Of a DNA stretch of 29,637 nucleotides, positions 2,591 through 26,600 are shown piece by piece. A program made the translations under genes and the position numbers. Positions within the stretch are counted from its first letter, which is position 1; each line of letters opens with the position of its first letter. Under the pieces are notes generated by a model. It did no database searches and was not told the origin of the DNA. It saw only the letters and a program-made list of their open reading frames with translations. The DNA comes from a virus, in IMG/VR virus record IMGVR_UViG_3300006749_000069, positions 1-29,637 of that record; one strand, 5' to 3'.

Positions 2591-3974
2591 AAGGCATACC
2601 AAATGGATTTATTTTGGTAAAATCAATGATTGCATCTGCTTTTGTTTCAATAGTATCATTATCTGCAAATGGATCATTTAAATCATCTTTATTGACAAGT
2701 CTTACTGCAAATGATGCACCTGATTCTGACCCAACAATATTTTCACCAACAAGGAAAGCTCCATCAACAATTGATACCTCAAGAGTATTGTTTACAGCAT
2801 CAAATTCTTTAACCCTTGCAGTAGTGCCTGAACTTGAACCTGTAACAATTTCATTAAATATATAACTTCCTGTTGCTACACTTGCTGGAGGTGCAGAGAA
2901 AGTTAAAGTTGGAGTGCTTGTATAACCACTACCAGGATTGACTATGAATGCAGCAGTAACAATACCTGCAGAATTAATACGTCCTACACCAGTTGCAGTT
3001 ATACCTCCAATTGGTGGAGAGGAGAATGTTATAGTTGGATTTTCAATGTAACCAGAACCAGAGGCAGTAATCGTAATACCAGATATACTTGTATTTGTTG
3101 TTAATCCAGTGGTAGCAACTGCTCCATTACCCCCACCACCACTAATTACAATTAAAGGTGCAACTGTGTAACCAGAACCAACATTTGATAGTAATATGGA
3201 ATTAACAGAACCACCTTTTGTTCCATCACATCCAACAAAGTCATTAGTTATAGATGCTATACCAACAGCAGTTACTCCACCTGGAGGAGAAGAGGAAAAC
3301 CCAACTTTTGGTGCTGATGAATATCCACCACCCATATTTGTTATTATTGGAATAGTAATCCCACCAGTTGTTGTGGTTGCTGTTCCAGTTGCTGTAATTG
3401 CCTGACCAATTAAAGTCAGAGTCTGCATGTAACCTAGTTGTTCAATCTCATCATCAATTGTCTCTACACCAGTGTCAAGAACTTCATCTTCAAATCTGTA
3501 CAGTTGACATTTCAACGTATATACATAATTTTTTTGAAGTTGGTAGAATGGTTGTTCATGTTCAACATAATTAATCTCAAATAATCTATCACCTAGTGGG
3601 AAGAAAATTAAATCACCCTCTTTTGGTCTAGTAGACAACTCAATATTTGGTATATTTTTTATAAGTGGAGTAATATAATTCTCATATCTTTCTCTTGATA
3701 CAATCAGTGTTAGGTCATCTTGCTCTTCAATTCCAAATTTTGATAATAATGTTCCCTGACCACCATATCCTTCATAACTATCAAGATATGCTTCTATAGG
3801 ATATGCATTGTTAAATTCAGATTGAATTACTTCTCTAATAACAGTATTTTTAGTAACATATCTTCTAGGAATATAATATATTTCAATTCCATACATCTGC
3901 AACTGCTCGTTGACCAGACTCTGTATGAGATTTTGCTCTTGTTTAGAGTTGTTTAAAAAATACGGATTGAGCAT
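2589..3974 (-). CDS. 14: Neck protein / head completion (gp14-like)
   Basis: Residues 1-185 are a clear gp14-type neck protein. They start MLNPYFLNN, then run through MYGIEIYYIPRRYV, a glycine-rich YEGYGGQGTLLSKFGI segment, GDLIFFPLGDRLFEINYVEH and QPFYQLQKNYVYTLKCQLYRFEDE. In T4, gp14 and gp13 form the neck that seals the filled head and connects it to the tail. T4 gp14 is 256 aa; this one is 461. The added part (about residues 185-400) holds four GxGYxxxP glycine-rich repeats, then an SGTTARV...VGENIVGSESGASFAV segment. The C-terminus (DPFADNDTIETKADAI...FTKINPFGMP) looks like the conserved gp14 tail. So the extra material appears inserted into a conserved neck protein. The gene follows gp13 by four bases and has AGG about ten bases upstream of the ATG. 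Confidence 0.93.
   Translation of the reverse strand: MLNPYFLNNSKQEQNLIQSLVNEQLQMYGIEIYYIPRRYVTKNTVIREVIQSEFNNAYPIEAYLDSYEGYGGQGTLLSKFGIEEQDDLTLIVSRERYENYITPLIKNIPNIELSTRPKEGDLIFFPLGDRLFEINYVEHEQPFYQLQKNYVYTLKCQLYRFEDEVLDTGVETIDDEIEQLGYMQTLTLIGQAITATGTATTTTGGITIPIITNMGGGYSSAPKVGFSSSPPGGVTAVGIASITNDFVGCDGTKGGSVNSILLSNVGSGYTVAPLIVISGGGGNGAVATTGLTTNTSISGITITASGSGYIENPTITFSSPPIGGITATGVGRINSAGIVTAAFIVNPGSGYTSTPTLTFSAPPASVATGSYIFNEIVTGSSSGTTARVKEFDAVNNTLEVSIVDGAFLVGENIVGSESGASFAVRLVNKDDLNDPFADNDTIETKADAIIDFTKINPFGMP
2886..3334 (-). repeat. Four GxGYxxxP protein repeats inserted in gp14
   Basis: Four degenerate units are centred near 3310, 3155, 3030 and 2910, spaced about 120-150 bases. The encoded cores are GGGYSSAPKVGFSSSPPGG, VGSGYTVAPLIVISGGGG, GSGYIENPTITFSSPPIGG and PGSGYTSTPTLTFSAPP. 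The intervening segments are short Val/Thr/Ile-rich strands. The repeats are diverged at nucleotide level but obvious in protein. Confidence 0.85.
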
Positions 3975-3978
3975 GTGA

Positions 3979-4842
3979 TCAACCTATCAAATCCATTGGT
4001 GGTAACTCATACTTACTTAACATCTCAACCTTGATTTCATCAAGTTCTCTTTGACCATCATCAAAGAGTTGTCTGCCATTAAATTCAATTCCCCCAGGTA
4101 GTTTTACACCTGTAAATTTAATGAGGTTCTGTCCCCATTGCCTTTTAATTAAAGCGGTCAAATATCTTTTTAAGAAAGGATCATTATATACTCTTGTATA
4201 ATCATTTGGATTAAGTGCTCTATAACATTCAAGAATAATAAATTCATCTTTTTTCAAATTATCCCAATCTACATCAAGATACATTCTATCTTGTCTAATA
4301 TTAAATCTAATTCTCTTGTGAGTGTTAAGGAGAAAATCCATTGTCTCCAAGTAACTCATTGACATTGAATATGATAGCAGGTCAGTGCTACCAAAGTAGT
4401 AAATATCATTCAAGAACAATTGATACTTGAAACTAAACATGTTAGAACTACTTGCTGCCTGAGCATCGTCATATTTAAATATTCTTTCAATACCTATAAC
4501 TTGGGGTGGGACTTGAATATAATTGCTATTTTCATAAAAAGCAAAGTTTGTAGAATCACCACCAACTGTAGTGCTTACTGTAGTTGAAGTGATCCCAGTT
4601 TGAGTGGTTGCACTTGAAGCACCTGGAGGTCTTGCTTTACCTCTTTCTACATCTTTTTCAGTAATTTGATACTTTAAGAATGTTTTTTCAACACCATCAT
4701 AGTGTCTTTCTTGAAAATGTTGAATGGCATCATCCATTAAGTCCTGAAGTTGTTCTTCAGCAACGTTAATTTCTAAGACAGGGGCACCTAACTGTCTTAA
4801 ACAATAATCTATAAGTTCTTGTCTTGAAGAAGGTTGTGCCAT
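3979..4842 (-). CDS. 13: Neck protein (gp13-like)
   Basis: This 287-residue protein starts MAQPSSRQELIDYCLRQLGA and continues with VLEINVAEEQLQDLMDDAIQ and FQERHYDGVEKTFLKYQIT, the hallmark N-terminus of gp13. Other recognisable parts are FSFKYQLFLNDIYYF, MDFLLNTHKRIRFNIRQDRMYLDVDW, ECYRALNP and KRYLTALIKRQWGQNLIKFTGVKLPGG. It forms the neck with gp14 after DNA packaging. Length is close to T4 gp13 (309 aa). A Ser/Thr-rich stretch at about residues 75-97 (ASSATTQTGITSTTVSTTVGG) looks like a flexible loop. The gene starts a gp13-gp14 unit: a late-type box lies 21 bases upstream, and AAGGA lies 11 bases before the ATG, the clearest ribosome binding site in the window. Confidence 0.95.
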   Translation of the reverse strand: MAQPSSRQELIDYCLRQLGAPVLEINVAEEQLQDLMDDAIQHFQERHYDGVEKTFLKYQITEKDVERGKARPPGASSATTQTGITSTTVSTTVGGDSTNFAFYENSNYIQVPPQVIGIERIFKYDDAQAASSSNMFSFKYQLFLNDIYYFGSTDLLSYSMSMSYLETMDFLLNTHKRIRFNIRQDRMYLDVDWDNLKKDEFIILECYRALNPNDYTRVYNDPFLKRYLTALIKRQWGQNLIKFTGVKLPGGIEFNGRQLFDDGQRELDEIKVEMLSKYELPPMDLIG

Positions 4843-4863
4843 TATACACTATATCCTTTTTTA

Positions 4864-4871
4864 TATTTAGT
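4864..4871 (-). promoter_or_regulatory. Putative late promoter box for gp13-gp14
   Basis: The minus strand reads ACTAAATA, two mismatches from TATAAATA, placed 21 bases upstream of the gp13 ATG and touching the upstream gene's stop codon. The position is equivalent to that of the stronger boxes at gp8, gp25 and gp15. Confidence 0.45.
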
Positions 4872-5254
4872 TATACGGAGAGACCTCCTTCTACTACTAC
4901 ATTTCCTGATACCATTTTGTAAACTGTAGATGCTGAACTTACAACATTAATGTCAAAATAATATCTACCTGGTTTCAAATCTTTTGTAATAGTATCTGTA
5001 AGTGAAATATTAAATTCACCAGCAGCAGCACTTGAGATACCACTAGTGAATGTGGTTATTCCTCCTGAAGATGATCCAATGGCAACACTTTTCTTTAATT
5101 TACCATGAACAGCATAACCAGATAAATCAAAAGCAGACTTATTTTCTTTATTAACTTTAAATGTAGATCTAAAGTCAGCACCTTCCAATATTGTGAGGTT
5201 TACACCATATGCAGTATTGGAGTCTGGATTAAAGGTGATTGTGTTGTTAGCCAT
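4871..5254 (-). CDS. Small beta-sandwich-like virion protein, unrecognised
   Basis: This 127-residue protein is Ser/Thr/Gly-rich with alternating hydrophobic strands. It starts MANNTITFNPDSNTAYGVNL, then has TILEGADFRSTFKV, a LSGYAVHGKLKKS segment, and ends GRYYFDINVVSSASTVYKMVSGNVVVEGG. The pattern (an early strand, a linear Asp/Phe-rich strand, then a GRYYFDI...Y.MVSGNVVV terminal hairpin) resembles the small Ig-like N-terminal domains of baseplate upper proteins (BppU-type). I infer this from the pattern only. Its start overlaps the preceding coiled-coil gene by eight bases, so the two are probably translated together. Position between the DUF4815-like giant protein and gp13 suggests a decoration or fibre part. 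Confidence 0.8.
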   Translation of the reverse strand: MANNTITFNPDSNTAYGVNLTILEGADFRSTFKVNKENKSAFDLSGYAVHGKLKKSVAIGSSSGGITTFTSGISSAAAGEFNISLTDTITKDLKPGRYYFDINVVSSASTVYKMVSGNVVVEGGLSV

Positions 5255-5468
5255 TGGTTATTGCTTTTAACATTGATTTGATTTCATCTAGATCACCCTT
5301 TAAATTATCAACTTTTTTTTCAAGGGAGTCTACTCTTTCTTTATCAGATAAAAGTTTCTCCCTGTTTTTTATGTATGCATCAAATTCATTTTTATTTGTA
5401 TTAATTATGGCATTTGTTTTCCCATCTCTCAATAGGTTTTTATTGCCCTCAACTGGAATTAAACTCAT
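5247..5468 (-). CDS. Small coiled-coil protein, unrecognised
   Basis: This is a 73-residue charged protein. Residues 1-35 contain NLLRDGKTNAIINTNKNEFDAYI. Residues 36-70 form a single heptad-patterned helix (LLSDKERVDSLEKKVDNLKG followed by DLDEIKSMLKAI), with Leu/Val/Ile at a and d positions. Such a short helix typically drives trimerisation or oligomerisation of a fibre or peripheral baseplate part. The ATG overlaps the stop of the 2523-residue gene as ATGA, and its own end overlaps the next gene by eight bases. The overlaps on both sides and the regular heptads argue that it is real rather than a shadow. No family is recognised with confidence. Confidence 0.75.
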   Translation of the reverse strand: MSLIPVEGNKNLLRDGKTNAIINTNKNEFDAYIKNREKLLSDKERVDSLEKKVDNLKGDLDEIKSMLKAITNG

Positions 5469-8400
5469 GCTAATGCTAATGCTCTTAGATTTCTGAATTG
5501 GGGAACAACTGCCTGATTAGATGATGTTCCTATCAGTTTAAGTCTAAATGACTTAAATGGTTGAAGATTATCCATAGTAAATTTATATTCAGTAAAGTCA
5601 TTAACTGCAGGTGTTTGGGTCAATTTGTCATTTTTTTCTTTTCTAATGTCAGGAGTTCCATTTGACAGAGAAGGATTGATAACGTTTCCAAAAGTATCAA
5701 TATTATTAATACCTGGAAATGGTCTAAACTTAGTTTCTTTTGCACTTACATTTTGATCAAGAGCATAGAAAACTCTTACATCATTAGAATTTGCAATGTA
5801 AGCATCGATGAATACCTTCAAAGATGTGGCAGGATTTTCAAGAGTTACATTTTTAGTAACATATATCATACTATTAGGATCATTTGGAATACCTGCAACT
5901 CTTGCATCAGTGGCAAAGTCTAAAATTGGACCATCAACTCTATTTGATACAAATACAACAGATGAATGATTAAGATCAATCATAGGTGAAATTCTCTTAT
6001 CATAAGTAAGTAAATCAAGATTTAAAGTAAATGATTTATTACCAGGGAATTGTGTGAGATTTTCATTTTGGTTGATTGATGATGCAACCATTCTCTGTGA
6101 TTCAAAATAGTTCTTTTGATTAAATTGAACATCTTGGAATCCCTGGTCAATAAATGCTATTTCATCACCTGAAACAGATGTTTCAGAAATAGTTCTAGCA
6201 GATGCAAGAACATATGAACCCTCTGGTGTTGTTGAGGTAATGTCAGGGATAATTATGGAATATGGAATGTTATAGGATCCTTTTGCTGTATTTGTGTTAG
6301 TAGATCCATCAGTTAGATAATTTGTTTTTGGAGCAAATGTTCCTATTCCTGTTCTATCTGTACCATTTGAACTCATGTCAATTTTAATATGATATGAGTC
6401 AATTGCTAAAGCATCTTTTTTAGTTACATCTTGAAGATTGTGGATTGTATTTATTCTTCTTAAAGAAACATCATTAAACTCATATTTTGTAACAATGTCA
6501 TTTGTCTTATGACTTGCAGCAATTCCTTCTGCTGCTCTACCAATACCAGTTAATGTTCCAGATGTTCCACTACCAGATGTAACACCCTCATATTTAATAA
6601 TTTCCTCACCAATCTGAACATATCCTGGATTGGTATTTGAAACACCTACATTTTCAAAATTTTCAAATCCATTTGTGTTTGCAATTGAAATATTTGCAGT
6701 GCTAGATCTTGTTATATTAGTAAGAATACTGGTAGGAGCACCAGATCCTTTTACATTTCTCAATTGTACTCTATTTGTATTAGAGTACATTCCATGATTT
6801 CTTTGATTGATCTTTAAATGAAGACCATCATTAATAACTGTTGTGCTTGTAGGACAAACTGAACCACCAACGCCAGCATTGATTGAAAGTCTGGTGCCAC
6901 CAGTAGAATCATATAAGAGATAGTCAGTAACATTAGTGCTAAAATCACCCTGAACATTGTTCAAGATAAGTGTATTTTGTGCTGTAATAATACCAACTGT
7001 AAGTTGACATCCAGATCCAAGTTCATTAATTCCAAATGGTAAAGGTTTAAGAACATCTCCCAATGAATAGTTACTTCCTCCTGATCTGATAGTTGCACCA
7101 ATAGCAACACCATCAAGCACAGTTATATCAGCAGTTGCATTGATACCTCTGCCAGTTACTGCAGTCAAACCAACTCCTGTAAATGTAAATGAACCTGCAG
7201 ATGGTGTAAATCCTATTCCAGCGGTTGTAACACTGAGTTGACCTGTAGCAATACCAGCAAACTTTCTAACAAAACCAGATGCTCCAGTATTCACCTGAAT
7301 AACTTTATTGCCAACAATAAGTGGATTTGATGCAGATCCTTGATTAACTGTTGTACCAATACCAACACTAATGCTTCTAGATTCAGCAAGAATTGCACCA
7401 GGTCCAATTGCTTCATTTTTATCATCAAGTTCAGGATTATAGAATTGAATATTTCCAGATCCTATAAAATCACCTCTATGAAGAACAAACTTCATATCTT
7501 CATATTGACTTGGAGTCCAAACTGAAGAGTTTTGTGACTTGAAGAGTGAACCAAGTACAGGTTGTTCAGTTACTAAGATTCTACCTGATTCTGTGGCAAG
7601 AGTAGTTACATCTGCCTCTCCAAGTCTAGAAATCCAAAGATTGTATGTAGTTACACTTGAGAGAACAACTAATGCATATTCACCACCTGGTCTTAAATAC
7701 ACAGGTGATTCAAATCTAAATGTTGTTGCTGCTGTGCCATCAGCAGAAACATTAACATCATCAGGATCAAGGGTCAATTCTGAATAAGCAAGAATAGTAT
7801 TATTTGGAGTTCCTAATGTAGTTTCTCTAATCTGTACAGTTACAGGCAAAGTATCATCTTTAGTCTGAAAGAATAAATCAACCTTTGTAGCATAGATTCC
7901 AATAGATGAGTCAATCTTAAAAGTCTGTGCAAGCGGATCACCTCTCCTTGGACGAGGGGGTGTTGGTGGAGGAGGGGGAGTTGGTCTTAATGTTGTGCTG
8001 TTAATGATATTCAGATCTATGTTAGACTCAATAATCTGAGATTCTGGAAGCACATCAACTGTGCTAACTCTTGCATTTCTAAGAGACAGAGTTACTTCTT
8101 CTGTAGTATCAATGTCACCTTGTGAATAGAAAATTTCCTCTGCTTCAGTAGTAGTGGTTCCTTCAATGCTACTGTTTATTGAACTGCTTGTAAGTTTAAA
8201 TACATTTCTACCTGTATTGAAGGTTTGTATTGTTAAATCACCTTCACCAGGAACTTCAAAACAACCTTGCAATGTACCAACTCTATCTGTTATAAGGTTA
8301 ACATTAGATACAGTTGCTTCAGCTCCACTTGTTTGACCTTGAAGAATCATTGTATTTACTACATGACCAGTGAAGGTTGGATTTTCTTCTGAGGCAAGTG

Positions 8401-11400
8401 TAACAGTATCTACATTAAGAATTGTGCTTTGAGCAGAATAAACTGAAGGAACAACGTTTGATCTTAAATAAGGATTACTATCATAAAAATCAGTTGGATT
8501 ATTGTAAGGACCATACTTATGATTAGCACTAGCAACCCTAAATCTTAATTCCTCTTCAGTTGCTCCAGGAATTCTTCCTACAACTTCCTCACCAACTTGG
8601 AACACACCAGAATTCATTACAATCTGAATCAACTTAGGAGTGCATCTTGTAGTTACATTTACATTATCAAAGAAAGCAAATACTTGTGTATTTGGTTTCA
8701 TTCTAGTGCCAGTGAATTCAATATTTCTCTCTCTCATAAAATTAGAGATAGATCTATTTGTAATTCTAGTACCAAGTGATTCTGCATCTGTTAAAATTTC
8801 ATTTACAGTCTGCTGAACACCAGTTCTATTTTGTTCAATATTAATAGTGCCATCAAGTGATGTTGAATTGATTGAACTTAAATTAGCATTGTTACCCCTC
8901 AAACCCAAATCAGCATTAGATCTACCAGTTCTTCTTGAAGCAGCTGCAAATGTTTCAGTTTGAGTTGATCCTGAAAGATCAAGACTAATTCCAGTGGTCT
9001 CCCAAGAATTCCACAAAGTAGGTGCTACACCTGTTCTCAAACCATCAGCACCATCAGTCACATCTGCTTGAAGTGCATCTGCAATTGACTCAAAATTGCC
9101 CTCTATAATAACATTATTTGTTTCAGGTGGTAGAGTGCTTACCCAAACATCTGTAGTTGGATTTAAAGCAATACTTCCTTGATAAAAATCAATTAAAAAA
9201 GGAGTGACATTTTCAACTCTTGTGGCATATGGTTGAGATATTTCTGCAACCTCAACATAATCTAAACTAATTACATCTCCAGTTCTTCTTACATTTTGTC
9301 CAGATAAAGATGCAAATCTTGAATCAATATTTGATGGAGTATCTCCACCAATTCCTGGAATAGCAGAACTACCAACTTGAAGATTAACTGCTGTTGAATA
9401 GTGTGCAGGTCTTAAGATTTTTTGCACAGGATCAATACTATTTCTAATACCAATGCTTACATCTTGTGGAGTATATGAAGAGAAATTATCAATGAAAATA
9501 CCAGATTTGAATCTGTTTAATCCATTAGCATCAGAAACAAAAGTATTAAGAGTGTTTTGCTCAAGAAGATTTAGAGAAGTGTAATATTCAAGATTTTTAA
9601 TTCTCTTTTCAAGTTTTGCGATATCATTCATTTGATATCTCTTGTGTTCAATAAAATTAATATTTGATTCTTTTACATTGTAAAGATATGGTGGATTAAA
9701 AACATTAGCAATATTTAAAGCACCAGGTAAAACATCAGGAAGTTCTGGTCTATCAGATGGAGCTCCAAGAGTAACTTGAATATCTCCATTTTTAGTCAGA
9801 TAAACCCTATCTGCCCTTCCAAGATAGTAATCATACGCAAGAATTGTTGACTCATCACTTGCAAAAATATATTTTGAACTATGATTACTATTATCAAAAA
9901 TTCTTCCATCAAACTCAAATGGTGAATTACCACCTTCAGTAATAGTATAATCTGAAACTCTTGGTCTTAAATCAATTATGTCAGTATTTCTAAATCCATC
10001 TACAGACTGAATTTCCTTAGAATAATCACAATTAGTATATGAGTTTGCAGTTGTTATATCACCAGTATCACTAGAATCATAATCAAGATATCCATAATAA
10101 ATAAGGAGTTTCTTAGTAGGAGTGTGAGAACTGAATCTTCTTCTTATCCTTGATATATCATAAATGTCACTTCTTTGACCATTATCAAAATCAAAAGATG
10201 ATGTAATATTTGGTGAACCTGCTGTAACGTCAGAAATATTTGATATAATATTGGTATTTGTAAAACTTACAATTTCATCATTTTGGAAAGTTTTATTATT
10301 AAGATACGCAAAAGCAATTGAACTTGAAGATAATTGCTCCAGATAAATTCCTTTAGCATCACTTAAATTGCCAACAAATATATCACCAATTTGAAGATCA
10401 TTTGTATTACCACTTGGACCTGTCATATTACTGACAGTCAATGTTGGACTAGATGGGTTATTTACATCAATGGATTCAAATATTGCATGAACAAGGTAAG
10501 CATCTGGTTTATTTAAAGAAATAACATTATCTTGAACCCTTGTTCCAAAAGGATAGTTTCCATACTCAAGTCCATCATTTAAAGTTGTACCTGCAAAACC
10601 TACTTTATCAATACCTGATATTGGGTTAGATGATTTATCAACTAATAATTTCTGAACAATATTTTTTCTTTTTACTTTTGAACTAACTTTATTTTGAGAA
10701 ACAGTTCCAACTAAAACTGCAGCACCAGTTCCAGTTAAACCTTGAATTGTAAGTTCTGTTCTGGCACTATTAAATGAAAACTTATCACTTGTAAGAGTTT
10801 GGGTGGTTCCATCATCACTTTGAAGAGAATATCTCTCTTCATCAAATGATGTCCAAGTTTGATTAGAGAGGTCATCAACAGCAATAGCACCTGTATCACC
10901 TGCTGCACTAATGGTTACATTTTTCTTTACTCTTATTACTGCACTAGAGTTATTTAAGTTTACAGAATTTATATTTACATTAGGTAAGGCACTATAAAGT
11001 GAATTTTTATTTGCGTCATTTCCACTATTTGATGAGTTTGTTAATTTAGTTGTAACAATTTTAAGATCATTTACATCAAAAGTGGCAGTTGGAAGACCAC
11101 CATCAGCAACTCCAGTGACAGAAGAAACACCTGAAATTGTAAAATTAGTTGATGCTACAGAAACAACTCTTGCAAATGAAACATCATTCAATCCTGGTCT
11201 TTCATACTGAATTATATTACCAGATGTTACAACTCCAACAAAAGTGCCTCCACCCAATGAAGGACTAGTTACAGTTGAAATACCTCCACTTAATGCACTA
11301 ATTCTTGCATTATCAAAGGTTAAAATAGGACTTTGAATTATATCAGCAGTAAATGTATTAGCAGTTCCAACAACCCCAAAAATTGATTTAACATCAGAAA

Positions 11401-13036: not shown

Positions 13037-13042
13037 AATTCT

Positions 13043-14599
13043 TTAGAATTGCAAAATGATTTTGACGTCTTCTTTTTGGGAAGTGGACCTGGTGACTGGG
13101 GGTCTATTATCTACGTAGACAATGTTTCCTGAATATTTTTTAGATTCTGGATTTGCAGTGCCCATGGCAAATTCTTGCCCAAGATTATATGTCTTATTAT
13201 TTATTACAGTGCTAATACCTGTAAATGAAGTGCTGATCTGCAATGTTGCTGATCCACCAATAATATTTACATTTCCACCTATATTTGATTTTGCATCACC
13301 ATCAAATAAAATATTTACAAATCCATAATCAGGACTGGGATTTTGTGAACCATCAGAATTAAATCCAACATTAGTTCTATCTTGCCAATATTTTAATACA
13401 CCAGTTATTTGATCATATGAAATAACTCTTCCAACTGCTGTTGAACCAAGTCCAACTGTCTGTGTAATTTCACTATCAGGAGTAAAAACTACTGAACTAT
13501 ATCCAGTGCCTGTTAGTCTCAATGCGTAAGTTGCTGCTGCTTTGTCTGAAGATAGAAGACTATTTGAACCAAACTGTTGTGGATTTTCAATAAGACCAAC
13601 TCTTGCAAATTGATTTCCTGTAATAAAATCAGGATTTTGAGTGTCATTATCATATCTTGAATATGTAAGGACATTTGATGCACCTAATTCAGTATAAATG
13701 TCATGTCCATGACCTCCAGGAGGAGGAATGATTACATTAAAAACTGGTGATGTTACTGCTGTTATACCTTTTTCTGTAAGGTCAATTGTTCCATAAGTAT
13801 ATCCTGAACCACCATTAGTAACAGCCACTGATTGAATTTTACTGTCAGCATTTACAACAACAGTTGCTTTGCCACCTTTTCCATCACCCTTAATGGTGAG
13901 ACCAGTATAAGTATTTGCATTTCCTAAACCAGCACCTCTATTTCTAACAGTGATAATTTTTAATTGCCCACTTGAGGCAGCATTTGCCTTAACTGTGGAA
14001 GTGTCAGTTGTATTTCCCCAATCATTAGGAACTGGAATATAATTTGTTGAGTCAAATTTTATAGCATCACCTGGTTTGATTGTATAAAGATATTTCCAAA
14101 TGTATCCATCACCACTTGAACCTGCTGCTCTAGGTTCTAAGTCAGTAAAGGTTGGTTCATCAAGTGAGGGACTTCCTTTGAAATTATTTTCAGGATTTGA
14201 ATTATTATACAGACAAATATATACTCTAAAATCACTGTTCATTACATAATAATTTGCACTGTATATGTTAAATGAACCAGATGGTTGTGAAGGATTTGAT
14301 CTTGAAATATCATTCCTCCACATATCATATATGCTACCAGATGACCAAGTATTTTTATTGACAACCTGAGTTACATCTCCACTACCTACCTTCTTTAAGG
14401 CAATCATTGTATCCCAATAGTCATTTGACTCATTTAAATTATCTTTTGGGGAGGGTGGAGTGCTATCCCAAGTAGATGAATAATCAGTGGCATTGGGTAG
14501 ACCAATGAACGTATAATATGAATTGCTGCTAGATTGAACTCCAGCAACAAAGTTTTTAGCATTTAATATACGAAGTTGATCAGTTATAATCGCAGCCAT
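13043..14599 (-). CDS. 8: Baseplate wedge subunit (gp8-like)
   Basis: This 518-residue protein starts MAAIITDQLRILNAKNFVAG, with SYYTFIGLPNATDY, DYWDTMIALKKV, YDMWRNDISRSNPSQPSGS, YYVMNSDFRVYICLYNNSNP, PTFTDLEPR and GDGYIWKYLYTIKPGDAIKF. This is the conserved gp8 core of marine T4-like phages. The C-terminal part has PPPGGHGHDIYTELGA, RVGLIENPQQFG, SGNIVYVDNRPPV and ends KEDVKIILQF, also typical. In T4, gp8 dimerises and joins gp10, gp7 and gp6 in the wedge. T4 gp8 is 334 aa; the extra residues include a glycine-rich insert at about 203-285 with two GxG(Y/L)-type units (NRGAGLGNANTY, NGGSGYTYGTI). The gene has the best late promoter match, 20 bases upstream, and heads a four-gene unit. The leader has no obvious Shine-Dalgarno sequence. 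Confidence 0.94.
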   Translation of the reverse strand: MAAIITDQLRILNAKNFVAGVQSSSNSYYTFIGLPNATDYSSTWDSTPPSPKDNLNESNDYWDTMIALKKVGSGDVTQVVNKNTWSSGSIYDMWRNDISRSNPSQPSGSFNIYSANYYVMNSDFRVYICLYNNSNPENNFKGSPSLDEPTFTDLEPRAAGSSGDGYIWKYLYTIKPGDAIKFDSTNYIPVPNDWGNTTDTSTVKANAASSGQLKIITVRNRGAGLGNANTYTGLTIKGDGKGGKATVVVNADSKIQSVAVTNGGSGYTYGTIDLTEKGITAVTSPVFNVIIPPPGGHGHDIYTELGASNVLTYSRYDNDTQNPDFITGNQFARVGLIENPQQFGSNSLLSSDKAAATYALRLTGTGYSSVVFTPDSEITQTVGLGSTAVGRVISYDQITGVLKYWQDRTNVGFNSDGSQNPSPDYGFVNILFDGDAKSNIGGNVNIIGGSATLQISTSFTGISTVINNKTYNLGQEFAMGTANPESKKYSGNIVYVDNRPPVTRSTSQKEDVKIILQF

Positions 14600-14619
14600 T
14601 TTATTAGGACTTTTTTGTT

Positions 14620-14627
14620 TATTTATA
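14620..14627 (-). promoter_or_regulatory. T4-type late promoter box for gp8 unit
   Basis: The minus strand reads CCCTATAAATAAA, containing a perfect TATAAATA, 20 bases before the gp8 ATG and immediately after the stop of the giant gene. The flanking bases match those at the gp25 box (CCCTATAAATAAA), supporting a common promoter type read by a gp55-like late sigma factor. Confidence 0.8.
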
Positions 14628-14632
14628 GGGAA

Positions 14633-17600
14633 TTAAGTGTAGTTTTTAAATTTGAGGGATGCAGTTCTTTGAACCAAACCAGATGTTGAAATTCCAATAA
14701 CTCCATCATTGTTGTATGAGTCAAAAGATTTGGTGTTAGTTCTGTCCTCAAATACAATTTTGCCCCAACTGTAATTGCCCATAAAGGGTCTTTGAGTGTG
14801 ATTAATGCCCGAACCATATGTATCAACATCACATTTAATCCTTCTTATTGCTGTTACAATACCAGAAGAATTTTCAGTTGTAACTGTTATCATCTGAGTT
14901 GATGCAGAATCAACTTGATATACACAATCAAGGAAAGTTTTTGCTACTCCAACATTGGATGCAAATGTGCTACCAATTGATAGGAAAGTATCACTCACAA
15001 CAATAAAATCACCTGTGCTAATTCCACTTACTGTCTGTGCAGTTCCAACAATACTTGCATCTCTCATAAATGAATCAGTTGGAATATAAACATCAAAGAA
15101 CAATTGTTTTTGTGATCCAACATTTGTGCTTCCAACACCTACAATTACACCATAATCACCTGAATAAGAATTAACATTAATTGTTTCTTTTGTTATTCTT
15201 GGTGGTTGGATCAAAACCAGAGGTTGTGTGGAGTAATTAGTTCCTCCATTAGTAATGGTAACACTTGTAACTACTCCTGCTGTCACAGAGGCAGTAGCAG
15301 TAGCCTGAGTGCCTAATGTACCAATACCTGCAATAGTGACTGTGGGAGTAAAATCATATCCCAATCCACCATCAGTAACAGATACTGTTGATATAGTTCC
15401 TCCAGTAGAAACAGTAGCAGTAGCAACAGCACCCTCAAATCCATTTTGTGAGATTAGTGTTACTGAGTTTTGGAATGCAGTATTAAATGATTCATTTGCA
15501 ACATTAAACAATGGTCTCACACTATCTACATATGCCTCAGTTGAATTTATTCCAACTGGAGTTGTTAGATAAGCAGCAGGGAAAATATTAGGTTCATATT
15601 TTGGTCTATCTTTGCCAATAAATTGACCATTTATTTTTTTGTCAATTGTTTGCCTACACCAAGTTAAAGGTCTCTTAACAGTTTCATCATCAGTAAGTCC
15701 AGGTCCAGGATATGCATTTGTTTTTACAGCATCAATTGTTGTAATTCCTGTTACAACCCTCTTATTCTGATCAAAAATTATACCTTGATCATCATCAATA
15801 TTAGGATTCAATTCAACAGTATCACCTATCTTAATTGTCTCTAAAATATCTTTAAATACCACATCAGTATCACCTGCTCCTTTGTAGAACAAAATTCTTG
15901 ATGTGTCACCTTCTGGAATACCTGAACCACGTCCTTTAGGTGCTTCATTAAATGTAATCTGACTTCCACCTTCAAAGAAGTAAGATTCTCCAGGAGTTTG
16001 AAGAATATCATTTATAAAGACAAAGAGGGTTTGATCAACTTCAATAGAGGAATCTCTAGCTGCTCTAATAGAGATTGGTTCATTCTCAAGTGTTAATGGG
16101 AATACTTTCTTTTGTCCATCAAATTTGTCATCTATTCTATCAAATACTTGGAATTCACCTGGAGAATATCCATGGAAAATATCACTATAGGTATCTTGAA
16201 TTGAAATTTGGAATTCACTAAATGCAGTAGATGTATCTGTTGGAATGCCAGTGGCACCACCTACAGGCACTGTAAGTATTTCACCTCTCTTGAATGCGTA
16301 TCCAAAATTATTAATTTCAAACTCAATAATACTAGATCCTTGACCAACTTTAACATTTATACTTGCTTGAGTTCCAATACCTGATGAAGATGAAGAATAA
16401 ACAAGAGGAATATTTGAATAACTAAGTGGTTCATCAATTACAACAACAGGTGGATTAGAACTTGTAAATCCAACTCCTCCATTTGTAATATTAAAACCTG
16501 TAACATGACCATTATTAATTGTTGCAGTACCAACATGAGTTAAGATAGGTAAAACACCATTATATGTCTGCACACCCACATTGTATGCTGTTACAACACC
16601 TGTCCTATATCCTGAACCACTATTACCAATACTAATTGATTGAACAGTGCCTCCAGCAGATATAACAGCAGTTCCACCTGCACTAACAAGAGGTTGATAT
16701 CCAGAACCTTCAAATGAACCAACAGAAACAATCAATCCCCCAATTGGAAGACCCCCAAGATTCTGGTCATGACCAGTGGGTGTACCAGAATTTGTGTTAA
16801 ATCTTATAGTAGTTACACCAGCACTAGCACTTTCAAAGTTTTGATATTCACCAATTTCATTTATATTTGCACCTTGTGGCGTTTGAAATATATTATTAAC
16901 AAGTATTAAAGAATTACTGGAAATACCACTTACATTTTGATTATCTGATTTTAAAATAAATTCACTTGTAATACCAGTAAATTGATGTGATATATCATCA
17001 AAAACAAAGTTATTATTATATGTTTCAGTTGTTGATGATGTAACTCCTCTCTTTGTTAAAACTCTACCACTAAAAGTAGAACTTGTAGTGATTCCTGTAA
17101 AATCTCTTTCATCAGGTGGATTTGTTGTAGATCCAATAGGTACATTACCAAATGGAGCGTTTACAAAATTCAGTGTATTATTTGTAACTGAAAAATTACC
17201 AACAAATTTCTCAATAGTTGCACCAATACTATGAATGCCAATTTGAGTCCCAAGAATAGGTCTCTGGACAAACATAGTTGTTCCAGAACCAATAATAGAT
17301 GTTACTCTCATGAATTCATCATCAATTTTAATAATATCATTAGATGATATTGATGTTATTCCACTTGTAGCAAACTGTGTTTGGAATATAACATCTTGAG
17401 ATAAAGTAGCAGCAATACCAGTTTTAGCAATTGGTGCTTGAATCATATTGTCAATTGACACAACCATTTTACTTGTTTGCTTGGTTGATGTGATAAAGTG
17501 TGAATTACCAACTCCAACACCATTAAACTGAATAAAGGATGGATTTACTGCTTGTGCATCAGTTGGACTAGTTGCAAATCCAATCAAGGCATCATTTACT

Positions 17601-20600
17601 TTAATTGCAAATAAATCAGTTGGTAGTAAAGAAGTTGAACCAACACTACCACCAAAATCAGTTGTAACTATTCCAATTCTTTGATCAGTTCCAGTAACAA
17701 CATATTTGATTGCCTCACCACTTTGGAAGAAGTGATTAGGTAAACTGATTTGATTTGTTGTTGTATTAACAACAGTTGTTGATGAACCATCAAATTGCCT
17801 TTCAAAAATTGGATCACCTTTGTGTGTTAAATTAAAATTAGTTCTGACAGAGTTTCTTGTACCAAAATAATTACCTGTTTGTGCTTTAAAGTATCCATCA
17901 TCAAGATCAATCTTATTATCAGTAACATCTGGGAAGATTTCTCTAAGATCAACAAAGAAAGACTTTACTTCAACAGCAATTCCTGGATTGGGTGTATAAG
18001 TAATCTGCACTAAATCCCCAGTTGTTGTTATACCAACTGTTCCAAGAGATGAATCAGTTTCTACAATTCCATATGGTGTGATTCCCTGTGTTGGAATTGT
18101 AAGTGAGTTTATCACTCCTAATTCAAACATTTCATGTTTGTTATTTGCAGTATCCTCTACAGTGATAACTTGATAAGATGCGCTGTATTTTTCAGAAATA
18201 GATCTTGTATCATAACTTGAAACTACATGTGCAGTAGGAGAACCAGAGGAGGCAATTGAAGTATAAGCACTACCAATTCTAGCAGTGTTCATTGTTGTAA
18301 TACCAGGAGAACTAGTCCCTCTAACAGTATTAACTATTTGACTATATGAAGTTGCTGCAATACCAGCATTTGGATGGAACTTAAGAAGAATATTAGATCC
18401 ACTGATTGCAGCACTGTAAGTTCCTATACCACCACCATATGAGATATCTGTATTTTCATCAATGTTATTATATTCAACAAAAGAAACATCACTACCATTG
18501 TGAATAATATTAAGTTCTGCAAAATGATATTCATCACCAGTAACTAAAAGATTCATAACTTTTAGTGATCTGAAACTTGTTCCCACAGAAACAATATTAG
18601 TGGTTGTTGCAGTTGCAACATTAACTTCTTGACTTTCATAGTGAACAATATCACCAAATGAAGTTATTGCAACACCACTTGCTGTAGGTTCAAAGGCAAA
18701 TGAGAATGATGAGACAAAATAATTATTATTCAAAAATTTATTGGGATGGAATACAAAATTCCATTCAGTATCAGATACATTAACATCAAAGAACCCTAAA
18801 TCAGGGAAAGTATATAAGTTTGCATAACTTGTCATATATGCAAAAGCATCATCATCAACTACAGCAGTTGTAATTTGGAACTGCCTTTCATCTGTAAATG
18901 TTGTATCTTGAACAAGGAACAATGATTTAACAAACTTTACGCCAGGTTCAAAACTAGATATATTAGAAAAAGCTTCTGGTCTAACTGTGCTGTTAAAAAG
19001 ATGACTTATGTTATCAACACTTAAAACTCTATTTCCTTGTGATTCAAAAAAGTCAGTTAGAACAACATTTTCTAAGAAAATTGTATCAGAAAATCTTTCA
19101 CCATTAACATTGTAAATATTTTCCTTTGCAATATCAAAATCATACACACAATTTAAATCACCCTCTCCAATACAATCAACAATAAATGACAATTCAGAAT
19201 CATTAACAAATGGTGTTAGATTACTCTCAGATTGACTTGTTATAACTAAATCTGAGAATTTTTTAAATCCTGCTGTATGGTTTAGTGATCCAACAGTATT
19301 ATCCCATTTATCAAATGGAACTGGTGATTTAAGTGCATATGAAAATCTCTGGTAGTAATCATTATCTGGCATTCTTTGGAGACTGTCATTTAATACACCA
19401 ATATCATCTATCCAACCATAATTAATTGTTGTTCCAGCACCAGTTTTTACATCTGCAATAAAGTCCCATTTCTTAACAACAATTCCTCTTGTCTTAGAAG
19501 AATCTGCTGTAACAATATCACCAATTGATAAATCATTTGATGTTTTAATTTTAAGAATATCTGTATCTTGATTGTAGTCCTCTACAATACCAGAACTTGA
19601 GTTCCAACTTACAGATTCATCATTAAGGAATTTATTTTTTCCTAATATTGGTTCAAATATTGGTAGTTGTGATTCTGCAATTACTCTTGCAGAGTTAAGT
19701 GATATTACATTACCAAGAATTTCATTCTGACTAAGATTATCTTTCATTGTATATTCAACATATGCACCTGAACCACCAGCATTAGTTTTTACACCAACAG
19801 TTTCAAATAATTTGTGTTTGTATTGTTCAGAATTGTATCCTTTACCAGTTGTTCCAACACCAATGTTTATACCTTCAACATATACATTATTTCCAATTGA
19901 GAAAGGATATTCATCATTACTATTAAATTGATTAGTAAGATTTAATCTGACTGTAGTTCCTGTTACTGCAATACTTCCAATTTCAAATCCATTAGAATTT
20001 TTAGTTGCTATAATTCTGGGACTTATTGGATAGAATCCTTTAGAGTTAGAAACAATTTCTACATTTGTATCACCTAATTCATAATTTAAAACACAATCTA
20101 CAATTTCATCAGTATATCCATCTCTTACTACAAGAGTTGCAGGGACAAGATAATCTTTTCCTGATGTGGTAATACCTATTCTTTCAAATGATGCAAGTGG
20201 ATTTACCTCAACAATTTCTGGAATATTTGCAGTTGGTTTGAGAGTTTTATCAGTAGGATAGTTCCAACCAATATTATTAGATTGAAACTTTTGATTTTGA
20301 ATTACACCAATAGATTTTGACTCAGCAAAAAGAATAGCATCAGAACCAATGTCACTTTTAATTGATGATATTCCAGGTAGCGTTTTATATCCATAGTTAT
20401 TATCAACTAAATCAACATTTTTTATAGAACCAAATGCAGTTTTTGATGTAGTTGTGTATTCAGGTTCTGCAGTTGTCCTATTGTAACTTGAAATGGGAGA
20501 TGTGTTGTCAAGATCAAAATTAAAAGTTGTAGTTCCAATTCCTGTAATTGAGAATGAACCATCTATTAATGATTTAGATTTAAATATTGTATTGTTAGAA

Positions 20601-23600
20601 ACAACATCATCATCAACTACTAATTTTTTATTTTGTGAGACGAATGATTCATTAACATTACTAAATTTATAATAAAGAGTTGATGGTGTATCTTTTATAT
20701 CAATTGTGAGTTGTCCGTCTGTTCCAACAACACCTGATGTCTTTACATTAAAATCATCATTTTCATTAGAAGTTAGATATTGATTAATAAACAATGAATC
20801 AGTAAAGATCTCTACTTTAAATGCAGGATACTTTATTGAATTAGAAATAAATGATAATGATTCATCTGACAAATCAAATTTTATATTTGAAAATGCAGGT
20901 ACACTTGGATTGATTTTTGATATAGTGCCAATGCCAGCACTAGTAATATTTACAAAGTTTGGTGAAATTTTATTCAGTTCAAATTTATCTTCAACAAGTT
21001 TTAATGTTGTTGGAGAATCCATATAAACATAATACATTTTTTCATTAGTTAAACCACCAGAGGGTGAATTTGATGAATGAATTACTTTATCTCCAGTTTT
21101 AAAAACATTTTCAACAACATCAATTGCATTTGTAGTAGTATTAACACCAGATGCTGCAAATGTTTGAGGATCAAATACTATTCTTCTGTTAAAGTCATTA
21201 TATCTGACATCAATAGTGGTTTCATTTTTTGCATTCAATGAGAAAATAACATTATCATCTTTTCTAAGTCCATGAGAACTAGCAGTTGATACAGTTACAT
21301 CAGTCCTCTGAGCAGTTCCTTTTACAACATCATCAAAGTTAGTAACTAAACTATGATACGCACCAGTTCCAACTCCAGTAAAATACAATAAACCAACTGT
21401 GTTATCAATAATTCCAACATAACCTGATGTAGTTAATCCAACTTTAGTAGATGATAATCCAATTAAATTATCATTAAAAGGAGCTACAAAAAGTGTTGAG
21501 AACTTGCTTAATGAGGTTTTTGCAATTCCAGTTCTTCCAGTCCAAACTTCTATTGAATCACCAGTGTTTGTATTATAAGTTACAGTATCATTGACTTTTA
21601 ATTTATGATTAGGAATAAACAATTGTTGTTCTGGCACAAATATATTTGTGATACCTGCTCCTGGATTTGAGAAGACAATAGTCTTTCCTGCACCAACAGT
21701 TGTCTCACTTCCAATCCCTAATGCTTCATTTGGATCAAAATATAATTCTGTATTAGTTTTTAAAATTTTAGTGGTTTTAATTGCTCCAACATTAATTAAG
21801 AATGATCTAGAATCTTGGAAAAGTTTTACATTTCCAGTGTGAGCAGCACCAGTTGTTCCTTCTTGCGCTCTTAAAACTCTTACTCTATTATTAAGTGGAT
21901 CACTATTCAGAACTTTTATTTTTTCAGATTCAATATTAATAATATCATTGGGTCTCATAATTGGATATTGGAAAGCACCACCTACTTCAAAATATGTAAC
22001 AATACCAGTTACTGATGAAGACTCTACATTATTAAGAAGAATGTAAGATCCAGTATTAACACCAACATTATAATATTGATCTAATCCTGGAAAATAATTA
22101 GATAAACCAGAAATTTTTAATCTAGTATTATCTTTTAAATTATGAGGTGCAGTCATAAACCCAACAAATTTATTAAAAGCACCTGCGTTCAAGAATTCAA
22201 TATCACTAAATGAGGTGGTATCAATGTTAACAAAATCAACTTGTTTGCCACCAATTTTATTAATAACACCTCTTGCTGTTTTACCAAATGTATCACCCTT
22301 AAAAACAACTTTGTCATTAATTTTATAATTTGAACCACCAGTGAATACACCAACAGAGTCCACACTACCTGTTGAAACGCTAGTTATTTCAATAACTTGT
22401 TCTTTAATATTATTTGAATTAAAGATATAGTCATAACCACCAAATATAGAATTAATTTTATATGGTGTTGTAATTCTCCTCCAATTATTTTTGACTAAAT
22501 CATAATCAACATGATTGGATGTTTTTTTATAATTGAAAATATTTTCCTTATGTTGAAATGTATTACCAATTAAGTATGGGAATTGTGGTTTTTTGAAATT
22601 TTTAAATGGACCTGTGCTTTCAGAGGTTTCTGAAATAGTTGAGAAATAAACAAATCTACCATTTGGATAATCAGGTGTTACACAAAATCTTCCATTTGAT
22701 TCATTTAAGTCACCAGAATCAGTAAATTGATAATCATTAACAAAGAAACCAAGAGGATACAAGTTTAAAGGAGGTCTATTAGATGAAATGACTTGTTCAT
22801 AACCACTTACCATCCTTCTTACAACACCACCATCTGGCCTATCATATCCATATGGACCATAAATTGGAGATCCATCATAAGCCCAACCAATAATTGGAGA
22901 GTGATATTTAGATTCAATCTCTATACCACCTAATTGTTTTAAGTCTGGGTGCTGATATTGAATTACACCATTTGATTTTTTGCCATATACTGATGTCCTA
23001 ATATTTCTAGGAGAATATAGATGTGCGATTTGAGTTGTCCCATCAAGTGTACCATTAGTAATAATACAATCATCATCAGTTAAATTATTAAATTTTTGCT
23101 CAAATTTATTAATTACCCATTGGTTTATGTTGGCAGAAATAGAACCATCATTTCCTGCAGGAATAATGGTAATATTAGAATCATTTTTATATTCAATTCC
23201 GCCAGATACAACAATAACAGACACAATTGAACCATTTGAAATAATAGGTGTTAATTTACAATACCTACCATCAGAAACAATTAAATCTGGTGGTGAATTA
23301 TATTCACTACCACCATTATTAATAATAACTTCTACTATTGATCCATTTACAATAATTGGAGTAAGTTGTGCATTTTTACCACTGTTTAAAGTGACAGATG
23401 GTTTTCTATCAAAGTTAAGTATTTCAGATGAACCATAACCAACACCTTCATTGTTTACATCTGCACTTGTAATACTACCTCTAATAATAGGTTGTAATGT
23501 GCAATCTATATTCTGTCCAAAAGACGTATTAACCCCAACTCTCCCAGAAACTGTTACTGTAATGGGTTTATAATTGAAACACCCATCTCCTACTTTTGTA

Positions 23601-26600
23601 ATATCAACTATGATATTGTTATCAATATAATATCTTTTTTCTAAAGAACCAGTCCCTAATTGATAAAGATTAAAATTGTCATCATCTATTTTTCCAACAT
23701 AATAATCAGTTTCAGAAGTAATTCCAGTTATAGAAGTTCCTTTTGGAGTGTATTGAATAATTTCATTAGTATTATAACCATGATTTTTAATTGTAAATCT
23801 ATTCAGTGATGTACTGATTCCACTTGAAACAATTGTTCTTTCTTGATTTTTGTATTCAGAACCACTATCTGAAATAATGATATTGCTTACAACTTTTTTT
23901 CTTTCAACTGTAGAGAATACTTGTGTGCCATTACCAACAGATGTAAGATTAACTGTGTTGATGCCAGAATTTGCATCATCAAATGAAGAGAATAATTTTA
24001 TCCTTGTACCATCAATAACTTTAGCAAAATAAACTTGATTAGTTCCTAGACCAACAACTGGATTTTTTGTGGTATTGTATGTTACTTGCTCAATATCTCT
24101 TAAATTGTGAAAAGTTGAGAATCCTATGATATCATTTGTAAGATCCACACCACCATCAAGATTGTTAAAAACAATACCTGCTTCAAATGGGATAGAATGA
24201 TCAACATCAATTAAATTAACTTCTGCTTTTGCTGGAGTTTTAGGACTACCTCCATCAATAGTTACAACAGGAGTTTCAAGATAATCAAAACCCTTATTGA
24301 TAATTCTCAATTCATCAACTGATCCAGAAACTGATACTGATCCTGTAGCATCAGTTCCAGATCCATCAGTAACATTAATTACAGGAGGATTAATTACATC
24401 ATAATTTTTACCAGGACTTGTTATTTCAAATGATTTTAATGCGCCATAAAAAATAACATCAGATGATTTATAGTTGTCTATTTCTACACCATTAATTAAT
24501 ATACCAGTTTTTCCAGGATTTGTTGTAAATGAACCTGCCTCTTGAATTGGTTCATCAATTTCTCTGTAAATTTTTTGACCAGAAAGTGGTTGTTCAAAAA
24601 ATGGATAGTAAGTAAATTTATTATCTGTTACAGTTCCTTCAGGAACTAAGAATTTATTATTATATAAATCTGATTTACTTTTTGACAACTTAATAGAAAA
24701 AGCACTTTCTCTCTTTACAAAATAAACACCCTCTTCTAGATTGCTAAAACCATCAATAGTTGTATCAACAAAAATTTGTGCATCAGAGGAACTAGATGTA
24801 GTAGTTACCTTTTTGTTGTAGTAAACAGAATCACCATTATATAAACCATGATCCTGACCATTAGTAATTTTTAAAATATCAAAATTTGCTGAACCACTAA
24901 ACAAAAATGTTTTATTATCACTTCTAATTTCATCATTATAATTTGGAACACTATTAGATGCTATTAAATATTTGCCATTATTTTTGTATGCATTAAGGAC
25001 ATTTGCATTTATACTGTCAATAGATAATTTTTCTGAATTACCTTTAAGAGTTTGATTTTCCAGTGTAAATGCATTACTTAAAGTGTTAGTTGGAATTGAT
25101 GTTGTTAACTTTACATTTAAATTTTTATTTGAATTAATAGATGTTACTTTGCCAAATTTAATTGCATTTAAGTTTACATCAGTTACCTCAACACTATATC
25201 CTACCACTAAATTGTGATCTTCAAAAAATTCAATTGTGTATATGTTACTGCTTGGATTGGTAAGTGATATAGATTTAATATTAAGTTTAGATTTTACATT
25301 ATAAAACCAATCAGATTTAATTGTATTATCTTCTACACCAATAGTCTTTAAACTAATTCTATCTCCAACACTTAATCCAAAATTTTCTCCATCATATTCA
25401 ATTTCTTGTAGAGTAGAAAGAATTCTTACTTTTATCTGTTCATCTGCTGCAATGTTTGCAAATGTAAAATCATTCTTTCTAACATCAACTCCTTTTGTGA
25501 AAGTTGATGTTGTTGTAGTTAATCCAATAAATTGAGTTAGATTCTTATCAGTGTAGTTTGTGATAAACTCATTACCATTATCATCAATAAGTGAAAGAGA
25601 ACCTGATGACTCAAAATCTATAGTAGAATCAACATCTATTATTGTTGATCCAATACTTACGTTATTGATAAGAATTGTTTTTGAATTTGGCTCAAATTTT
25701 CCAAATATTGTTCCACTCACATCAATATCACGCTGATATCCAGTATCAATTGAAATTTGATAAAAATCACCATCTACATTTAGTTTTTCAACTTTTGTTA
25801 CTGTGCCTCTTGAGTTAGTTGAGTTTTGAAATATTGTTCTATTCTTGAGATTAAGAGGATCACCAACATATTTTTCTACAACATAATCTTGACTGACAAC
25901 ATAATTTGCATCAGAAGGTCTAATTAGAAAATTATTTGGTTTAATAATATCTACATCAACACCATAAATTGCTTTAAACAAAATTTTAAATGATTCATCT
26001 GTGCCTTTTGATTTGTAAAAACTATCAGCACCAATAATAAAATTCTTTTTATTTAATTTTGAAGCAAGAGTTCTATTTTCAAATCCTGGAACAATTTGTG
26101 TCTTCAACTTTGTGAAGAATTCTTGTAAGAAAAGAACGCTCAGATTTTTAACAGTAGCACCTGTTTTATGTGTTGCAGGTAAAGTAGAAGTAAATGTTTG
26201 TTTATCTGGTATAAGTGTATTAATATATTGGGTAACACCACTAAAACCTCTTACACAACCTTCTAATGTGGTTGCAGTTTTACTGCTATATTTTATTATT
26301 TCATCATCTATTTGAATTAGACCATTCTTTTCAGGGAATTGATATGTAAAATTAGTATCAGCAGAAAGAGTAATGGTTGTTGAAACTGCACTGAGATCAG
26401 CACCCAATAATGCCTCAGTCTTTAGATTTGTAAGTTCATCAACTTTTACATATTGATCAAGATTTTCAATAAGGTCAAGGGATCCACCTTGTGTTTCTTG
26501 AGAAATATAATACTCTTCTAAGAAATCTACAAGTAAAGGAAAATCATCCTGTACATAGGAAGGAATCTGGGATGATAATACATCCTGAATTTGTACTCTA

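Follow-up and report, generated by a model that had tools for sequence, protein, structure and literature searches.

The repeats found in four structural proteins of a T4-like cyanomyophage were confirmed to be one homologous module family, which forms an insert in at least two of them, gp14 and gp8. This family turned out to be more ancient and much more widespread than first proposed, and the new element is a pair rule: judged from unit counts and from the order of profile matches, the working unit appears to be the pair and not the single repeat. A unit comprises about 38 residues in three strands, b1 (AxATATI), b2 (GxVxxIxITNGG, then SGYTxxP), and b3 (TVTI).

Cyanomyophages are abundant in the ocean, and their baseplate proteins, several times the size of those of T4, are mostly unexplained. 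The window, i.e. the whole stretch of DNA analysed, is a 29,637-base IMG/VR fragment of such a phage, to which Prochlorococcus phage P-TIM68 and Synechococcus phage S-SM2 (Kyanoviridae) are the closest isolates. Comparison with the S-SM2 annotation identified gp6, a gp7-like giant protein (3992 aa), gp8, VrlC (2523 aa), gp13, gp14, gp15, and gp16; all genes discussed are located on the minus strand. VrlC has been proposed as a component of a two-layered baseplate (PMC7029224). In Pfam scans, the N-terminal core of gp14 (PF11649, E=2.5e-33, aa 1-174) and gp8 (PF09215, E=9.1e-13) were recognized. The gp14 core matches T4 gp14 over aa 2-164 (PDB 9mkb, 9lu4), and both ends of gp8 match T4 gp8 (PDB 1n7z) at aa 3-191 and 486-518, with the gp8 pair sitting between these two stretches. 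The cores are thus shared with T4, but the T4-type proteins are without the module.

GGxGYxxxPxVxI and AxAxVxxGxVxxVxVTNGG motifs had been assigned by the first-pass annotation to gp14 (aa 214-363), gp8 (aa 204-285), VrlC (aa 1973-2003), and the gp7-like protein (aa 724-794, 1048-1151, 1418-1438, 3308-3394, and 3728-3808), and the DNA does translate to them at these places. The elements delimited by profile searches are listed in Table 1.

Table 1. Repeat units, pairs, and other modules located in the window
Feature	Residues	Position	Strand	Score or model
gp14 (neck/head-closure) insert; four units, an even number, two pairs	193-366	2877..3398	-	gp14-only and pair HMMs
gp14 unit 4, TATGVGRINSAGIVTAAFIVNPGSGYTSTPTLTFSAPP		2886..2999	-	42.9 bits
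gp14 unit 3		3012..3125	-	34.9 bits
gp14 unit 2		3129..3275	-	38.7 bits
gp14 unit 1		3282..3395	-	31.5 bits
VrlC (2523-aa baseplate protein) pair	1933-2021	6974..7240	-	25.5 bits, pair HMM; 12.3 bits, cellular-only (aa 1933-1995)
gp8 (baseplate wedge) pair	211-295	13715..13969	-	49.5 bits, pair HMM; 22.1 bits, cellular-only
gp7-like pair D	3716-3815	15167..15466	-	54.1 bits, pair HMM; 48.3 bits, cellular-only
gp7-like array C; two clear units and weaker flanking ones	3311-3455	16247..16681	-	unit and pair HMMs
gp7-like marginal unit, not secure	1415-1451	22259..22369	-	8.8 bits, pair HMM (shuffled maximum 7.7)
gp7-like array B; three clear units, possibly a degenerate fourth	1018-1165	23117..23560	-	42.3 and 32.6 bits
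gp7-like pair A	722-805	24197..24448	-	69.2 bits, pair HMM; 37.8 bits, cellular-only
gp14, further module	366-431	2682..2879	-	
gp7-like YHYH domain (PF14240)	1232-1328	22628..22918	-	E=2.8e-20
gp15, second small module	247-312	1628..1825	-	
VrlC, second small module		6488..6655	-	
gp7-like, second small module		17210..17407	-	
gp7-like, second small module		21833..21952	-	
gp7-like, second small module		26243..26407	-	

A unit HMM built from gp14 only (324 units from 81 phage proteins) was run on all window proteins and on 2,400 shuffled proteins, the best of which reached 8.1 bits. Scores of 17.8 bits for gp8 and of 38.6, 28.2, 22.5, 20.8, 16.2, and 11.1 bits for the gp7-like protein were obtained, while gp7-like sites at 1042 (5.7 bits) and 1409 (6.6 bits) were within the noise. 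The expectation that a profile of the gp14 copies retrieves those of the other genes therefore held for gp8 and the gp7-like protein; VrlC of the window gave no match with this model, and its homologues scored 12.0-15.2 bits, several of them at the homologous position. Among 2,936 ORFs of related viral contigs, 769 matches of at least 12 bits were found, compared to one in reversed ORFs and none in locally shuffled ones. A two-unit pair HMM made solely from cellular proteins (best shuffled score 8.9 bits) detected gp14 with 52.4 bits, gp8 and VrlC with the scores given in Table 1, and the gp7-like protein at pairs D and A and with a further 30.1, 20.4, and 16.8 bits. The single family suggested for the four structural genes is therefore upheld, by the gp14-only model for gp8 and the gp7-like protein and by the cellular-only model for all four. 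The marginal site, annotated at 22300-22360, is narrowly above the shuffled maximum with a 29-row pair model (Table 1) and below it with the cellular-only model (5.5 versus 8.9 bits). A model from the four gp14 copies of the window alone was weak (7.1 bits for gp8, 11.8 for the gp7-like protein), with both proteins still ranking above their own shuffled versions, and it was superseded by the 81-phage model. Independent PHROG models also cross-match between gp14 and the baseplate genes. A tblastn search of phages with a gp7-like pair gave no match, possibly through low-complexity filtering.

Searches of bacterial and archaeal genomes with a consensus pair yielded 80 loci that were kept, in all of which units were detected by the gp14-only HMM; the query was a self-written two-unit consensus favouring arrays of two, so that these loci do not sample the genomes at random. 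The module is carried, among others, by a SusD-family lipoprotein, by proteins of the prophage tail-sheath, DUF3383, and FGE-sulfatase kinds, and by large proteins that Pfam leaves unmatched. In the SusD and prophage sheath-like proteins, two units form a clean insert. While the four-gene family among the head-tail genes stands, its restriction to such genes was too narrow, since the module is widespread in bacteria. No Pfam or NCBIfam model recognized it in the scanned carriers; its presence in SusD-family and sheath-like proteins makes it an insertable domain common to cells and viruses and unnamed in the scanned family libraries. Several SusD-like lipoproteins of Bacteroidota (loci L251, L258, L192, L243, and L244; Pfam annotation was run on L251) have two-unit inserts at comparable positions.

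Unit counts revealed a clear parity. Among 63 nonredundant cellular arrays, 50 contain an even and nine an odd number of units greater than one (p=2.6e-8). The bias held when the HMM, the score cut-off, and the gap limit were each varied over three choices, and it persisted when arrays of exactly two were omitted (p from 4e-6 to 0.04; for example 30 even versus nine odd, p=5e-4). Phage arrays are mostly even too, but represent orthologous sites and are not independent. Within the window, four units are present in gp14 and two each in gp8, VrlC, and gp7-like A and D, the second half of the VrlC pair being a GDxL variant. Arrays B and C of the gp7-like protein, with three and two clear units and weaker neighbours, obey the even rule only when degenerate units are included in the count. 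Some phage arrays with three recognizable units, for which a degenerate fourth is needed, speak against pairing, and the pairing register of the gp14 array is ambiguous. The even-number rule provides a simple test of the half-domain nature of the repeats.

The order of the matches points in the same direction. In many inserts the HMM gave partial matches, first at model positions of about 12-39 and last at 1-14, corresponding to b2-b3, b1-b2-b3, and a final b1. This order implies that two units close into one circularly permuted block. The permutation is visible in the SusD and prophage sheath inserts, and gp7-like pair A is a clean example (b2-b3/b1-b2-b3/b1). A tentative wider proposal, to which slightly less than even weight is given, is that the module would be a very widespread insertion domain of two half-domains that fold only as a pair and can be placed circularly permuted into loops. 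It would be common to surface proteins of bacteria, to sheath-like proteins of prophages, and to the neck and baseplate of T4-like cyanophages, and nameless in the scanned Pfam and NCBIfam libraries.

AlphaFold2 predicted three strands per unit both for the gp14 repeats (block means of pLDDT about 77-91) and for the C-terminal part of the gp7-like protein (mean pLDDT 82.8); in gp7-like pair D, strands were placed where expected, with pLDDT mostly 73-91. Foldseek comparison of the gp14 and gp7-like models with the PDB gave no solved Ig-like match: the sole significant match was the T4 gp14 core for the gp14 model, and there was none for the gp7-like model. When compared with predicted viral proteins, the gp14 model matched structural proteins of cyanophages as well. 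When the pair profile was compared with the PDB, the sole credible match, a weak one, was Dpo31 aa 448-507 (E=0.017); the single-unit profile matched Dpo31 with E=0.24, and both matches fall within aa 434-536. Two matches to BURRH had better E-values than Dpo31 and were discarded, since they add up weak repeat scores in a helical protein.

Dpo31 is the tailspike of podovirus Carin-1 (PDB 28lx, 8ck1; PMC13317679), and the pair-profile match lies inside its protruding, Ig-like domain D3*. Like the module in gp14 and gp8, D3* is inserted into another fold, and it contains two GxGY units with a spacing of about 44 residues. It differs in that the sequence match is weak and in that the podovirus tailspike has just one such insert, and the passages of PMC13317679 concerned describe neither a two-repeat module nor a link to other families. 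Ig-like domains of phages in general (Fraser et al. 2006, as cited in passages of PMC13370021; T4 Hoc, PKD, Big2, FN3) are small beta domains on unrelated structural proteins which are also present or absent between relatives, like the gp14 array. The placement of the module is similar, in four varied structural genes and with an array in gp14 that is variable between relatives, but the module has two homologous halves and several copies within one giant protein. No Pfam match to Big_2, I-set, FN3, PKD, or HYR was obtained in gp14, gp8, VrlC, the gp7-like protein, or ten cellular carriers. The tandem BACON repeats of crAssphage (PMC6949934) are likewise tandem beta modules in a phage protein; they differ in motif, whereas even counts and pairs inserted into loops characterize the module, and the BACON profile had no match in the Pfam scans of window proteins and cellular carriers. 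PHROG families 460 (Hc2), 438, 708, and 2885 (baseplate wedge), 358 (VrlC-like), and 701 match module-carrying phage genes, and PHROG 460 cross-matches the gp7-like protein via the repeats, but these are whole-protein families that leave the module undefined. A literature search on the motif 'GGSGYT' found no paper.

Taken together, the pairs are rather probably small inserts in neck and baseplate proteins, with an Ig-like beta-sandwich fold. One pair, with six strands and about 80-90 residues, would constitute a folding domain, often inserted in circularly permuted form (b2-b3/b1-b2-b3/b1'), and would sit in a surface loop of the carrier protein, leaving its fold undisturbed. Such pairs would decorate the neck, with two per gp14 subunit, and the baseplate through gp8, the gp7-like protein, and VrlC; they may point away from the particle and make additional contacts, with adjacent subunits of the virion or, weakly, with polysaccharide of the cell surface. 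The surface-binding or thickening role suggested by the first-pass annotation is plausible. If two-repeat beta inserts explain part of the size of these proteins, much of the unannotated sequence in the gp7-like protein, VrlC, gp8, and gp14 becomes readable.

Two narrower roles, which may be combined, are conceivable. The pairs could be ligand-free spacers packed between adjacent subunits, stiffening neck and baseplate. The carriers form rings or wedges, the arrays have kept the same gene positions over long divergence, and residues 178-256 of T4 gp14 contact gp15 in the mature virion (PMC12270204), the gp14 array being inserted at about the start of the equivalent region. The role as a brace is nevertheless doubtful, because the module is also present in bacterial proteins that form no virion and the array is dispensable in one phage. 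Phage P-SSM4 has a gp14 without the whole array, although the flanks on both sides still align, and T4-type gp14 is also without it. P-SSM4 being an isolated phage, this argues against an essential structural role in its gp14, where the array would be dispensable. In other proteins of P-SSM4, 31 units were counted; P-TIM68 has 21 matches and S-SM2 16, and a unit search of a T4-type coliphage genome found none. Many of the P-SSM4 units are contained in a 7312-aa open frame (NC_006884.2, positions about 58038-78992).

Somewhat less likely still, the pairs would be carbohydrate-binding Ig-like domains that mediate reversible adsorption to host polysaccharide, a role that has been proposed for Ig-like domains of other phages. 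Passages of PMC13317679 liken Dpo31 D3* to sugar-binding Ig-like domains and place depolymerase activity near the D3*/D3 interface, but that likeness is weak, with a Z of about 2.9, and D3* has no known ligand. Insertion of the module in a SusD-family protein and its occurrence in an FGE-sulfatase protein are consistent with an adhesin, as are the YHYH domain in the same gp7-like giant protein and the promotion of adhesion by Ig-like phage proteins in another system, reported in passages of PMC13370021. Against it, the neck is an odd site for an adhesin, and no conserved polar binding site was found in the units, in which G, Y, and P are the conserved residues.

The history of the copies could be followed independently of their role. 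Recombination had been suggested to have spread the units among neighbouring head-tail genes; in the sense of recent events, with gene conversion keeping the units alike, this is unsupported. The units are homologous across the four genes, but gp14 units from different phages have about 54% identity when they occupy the same position, whereas identity between positions is about 33%, no matter whether the units come from one phage protein or from different phages. The tree expected to decide between grouping by gene and grouping by phage comprised 70 units from seven phages, with 38 columns and many forks open, and grouping was by gene and position, not by phage: the gene label required six changes (shuffled mean 27.9) and the phage label 56. 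Cross-gene similarity at the synonymous level did not differ (p=0.43) between comparisons within a phage, with a mean z of 0.09, and those across phages, with 0.08. Clustering by gene and position together with equal cross-gene codon similarity indicates duplication long before these phages diverged, with positions kept. The duplications are old, and the copies are inherited vertically in place. To go by these sequence comparisons, the module has the look of a long-established accessory domain and not of something recently copied between phage genes. One unit pair stands apart: gp8 13798-13865 and gp7-like 16606-16673 share 72% of 68 nt, which is above the codon-usage expectation (z=3.4; p=0.0004, uncorrected), but this isolated outlier was selected as the best of all window comparisons. 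Its likeness may go back to a copying event long ago or, with so many comparisons, be due to chance. With identity pattern, tree, and codon-level tests all against it, recent copying is very unlikely, already largely refuted, and was dropped. A common origin itself is hardly in question: despite the abundance of G, S, T, and V in the motif, convergence of glycine-rich low-complexity sequence is discounted by the near-zero scores of reversed and shuffled sequences and by the recovery of all four phage genes with a model from cellular proteins alone.

Two other modules were observed in the window (Table 1). The residues following the gp14 array contain a further module, FNEIVTGxxSGxTARVK..., which is present in P-SSM4 gp14 and can hardly be aligned in gp14 of the T4 type; a search of the window with its HMM gave no further copy. 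A second small module, IGDEExxV...RG...H..GA.V, is common to gp15, VrlC, and three places in the gp7-like protein, and an iterated HMM begun from gp15 gave 71.4, 25.2, 19.9, and 17.5 bits compared to 10.3 bits for shuffled sequences.
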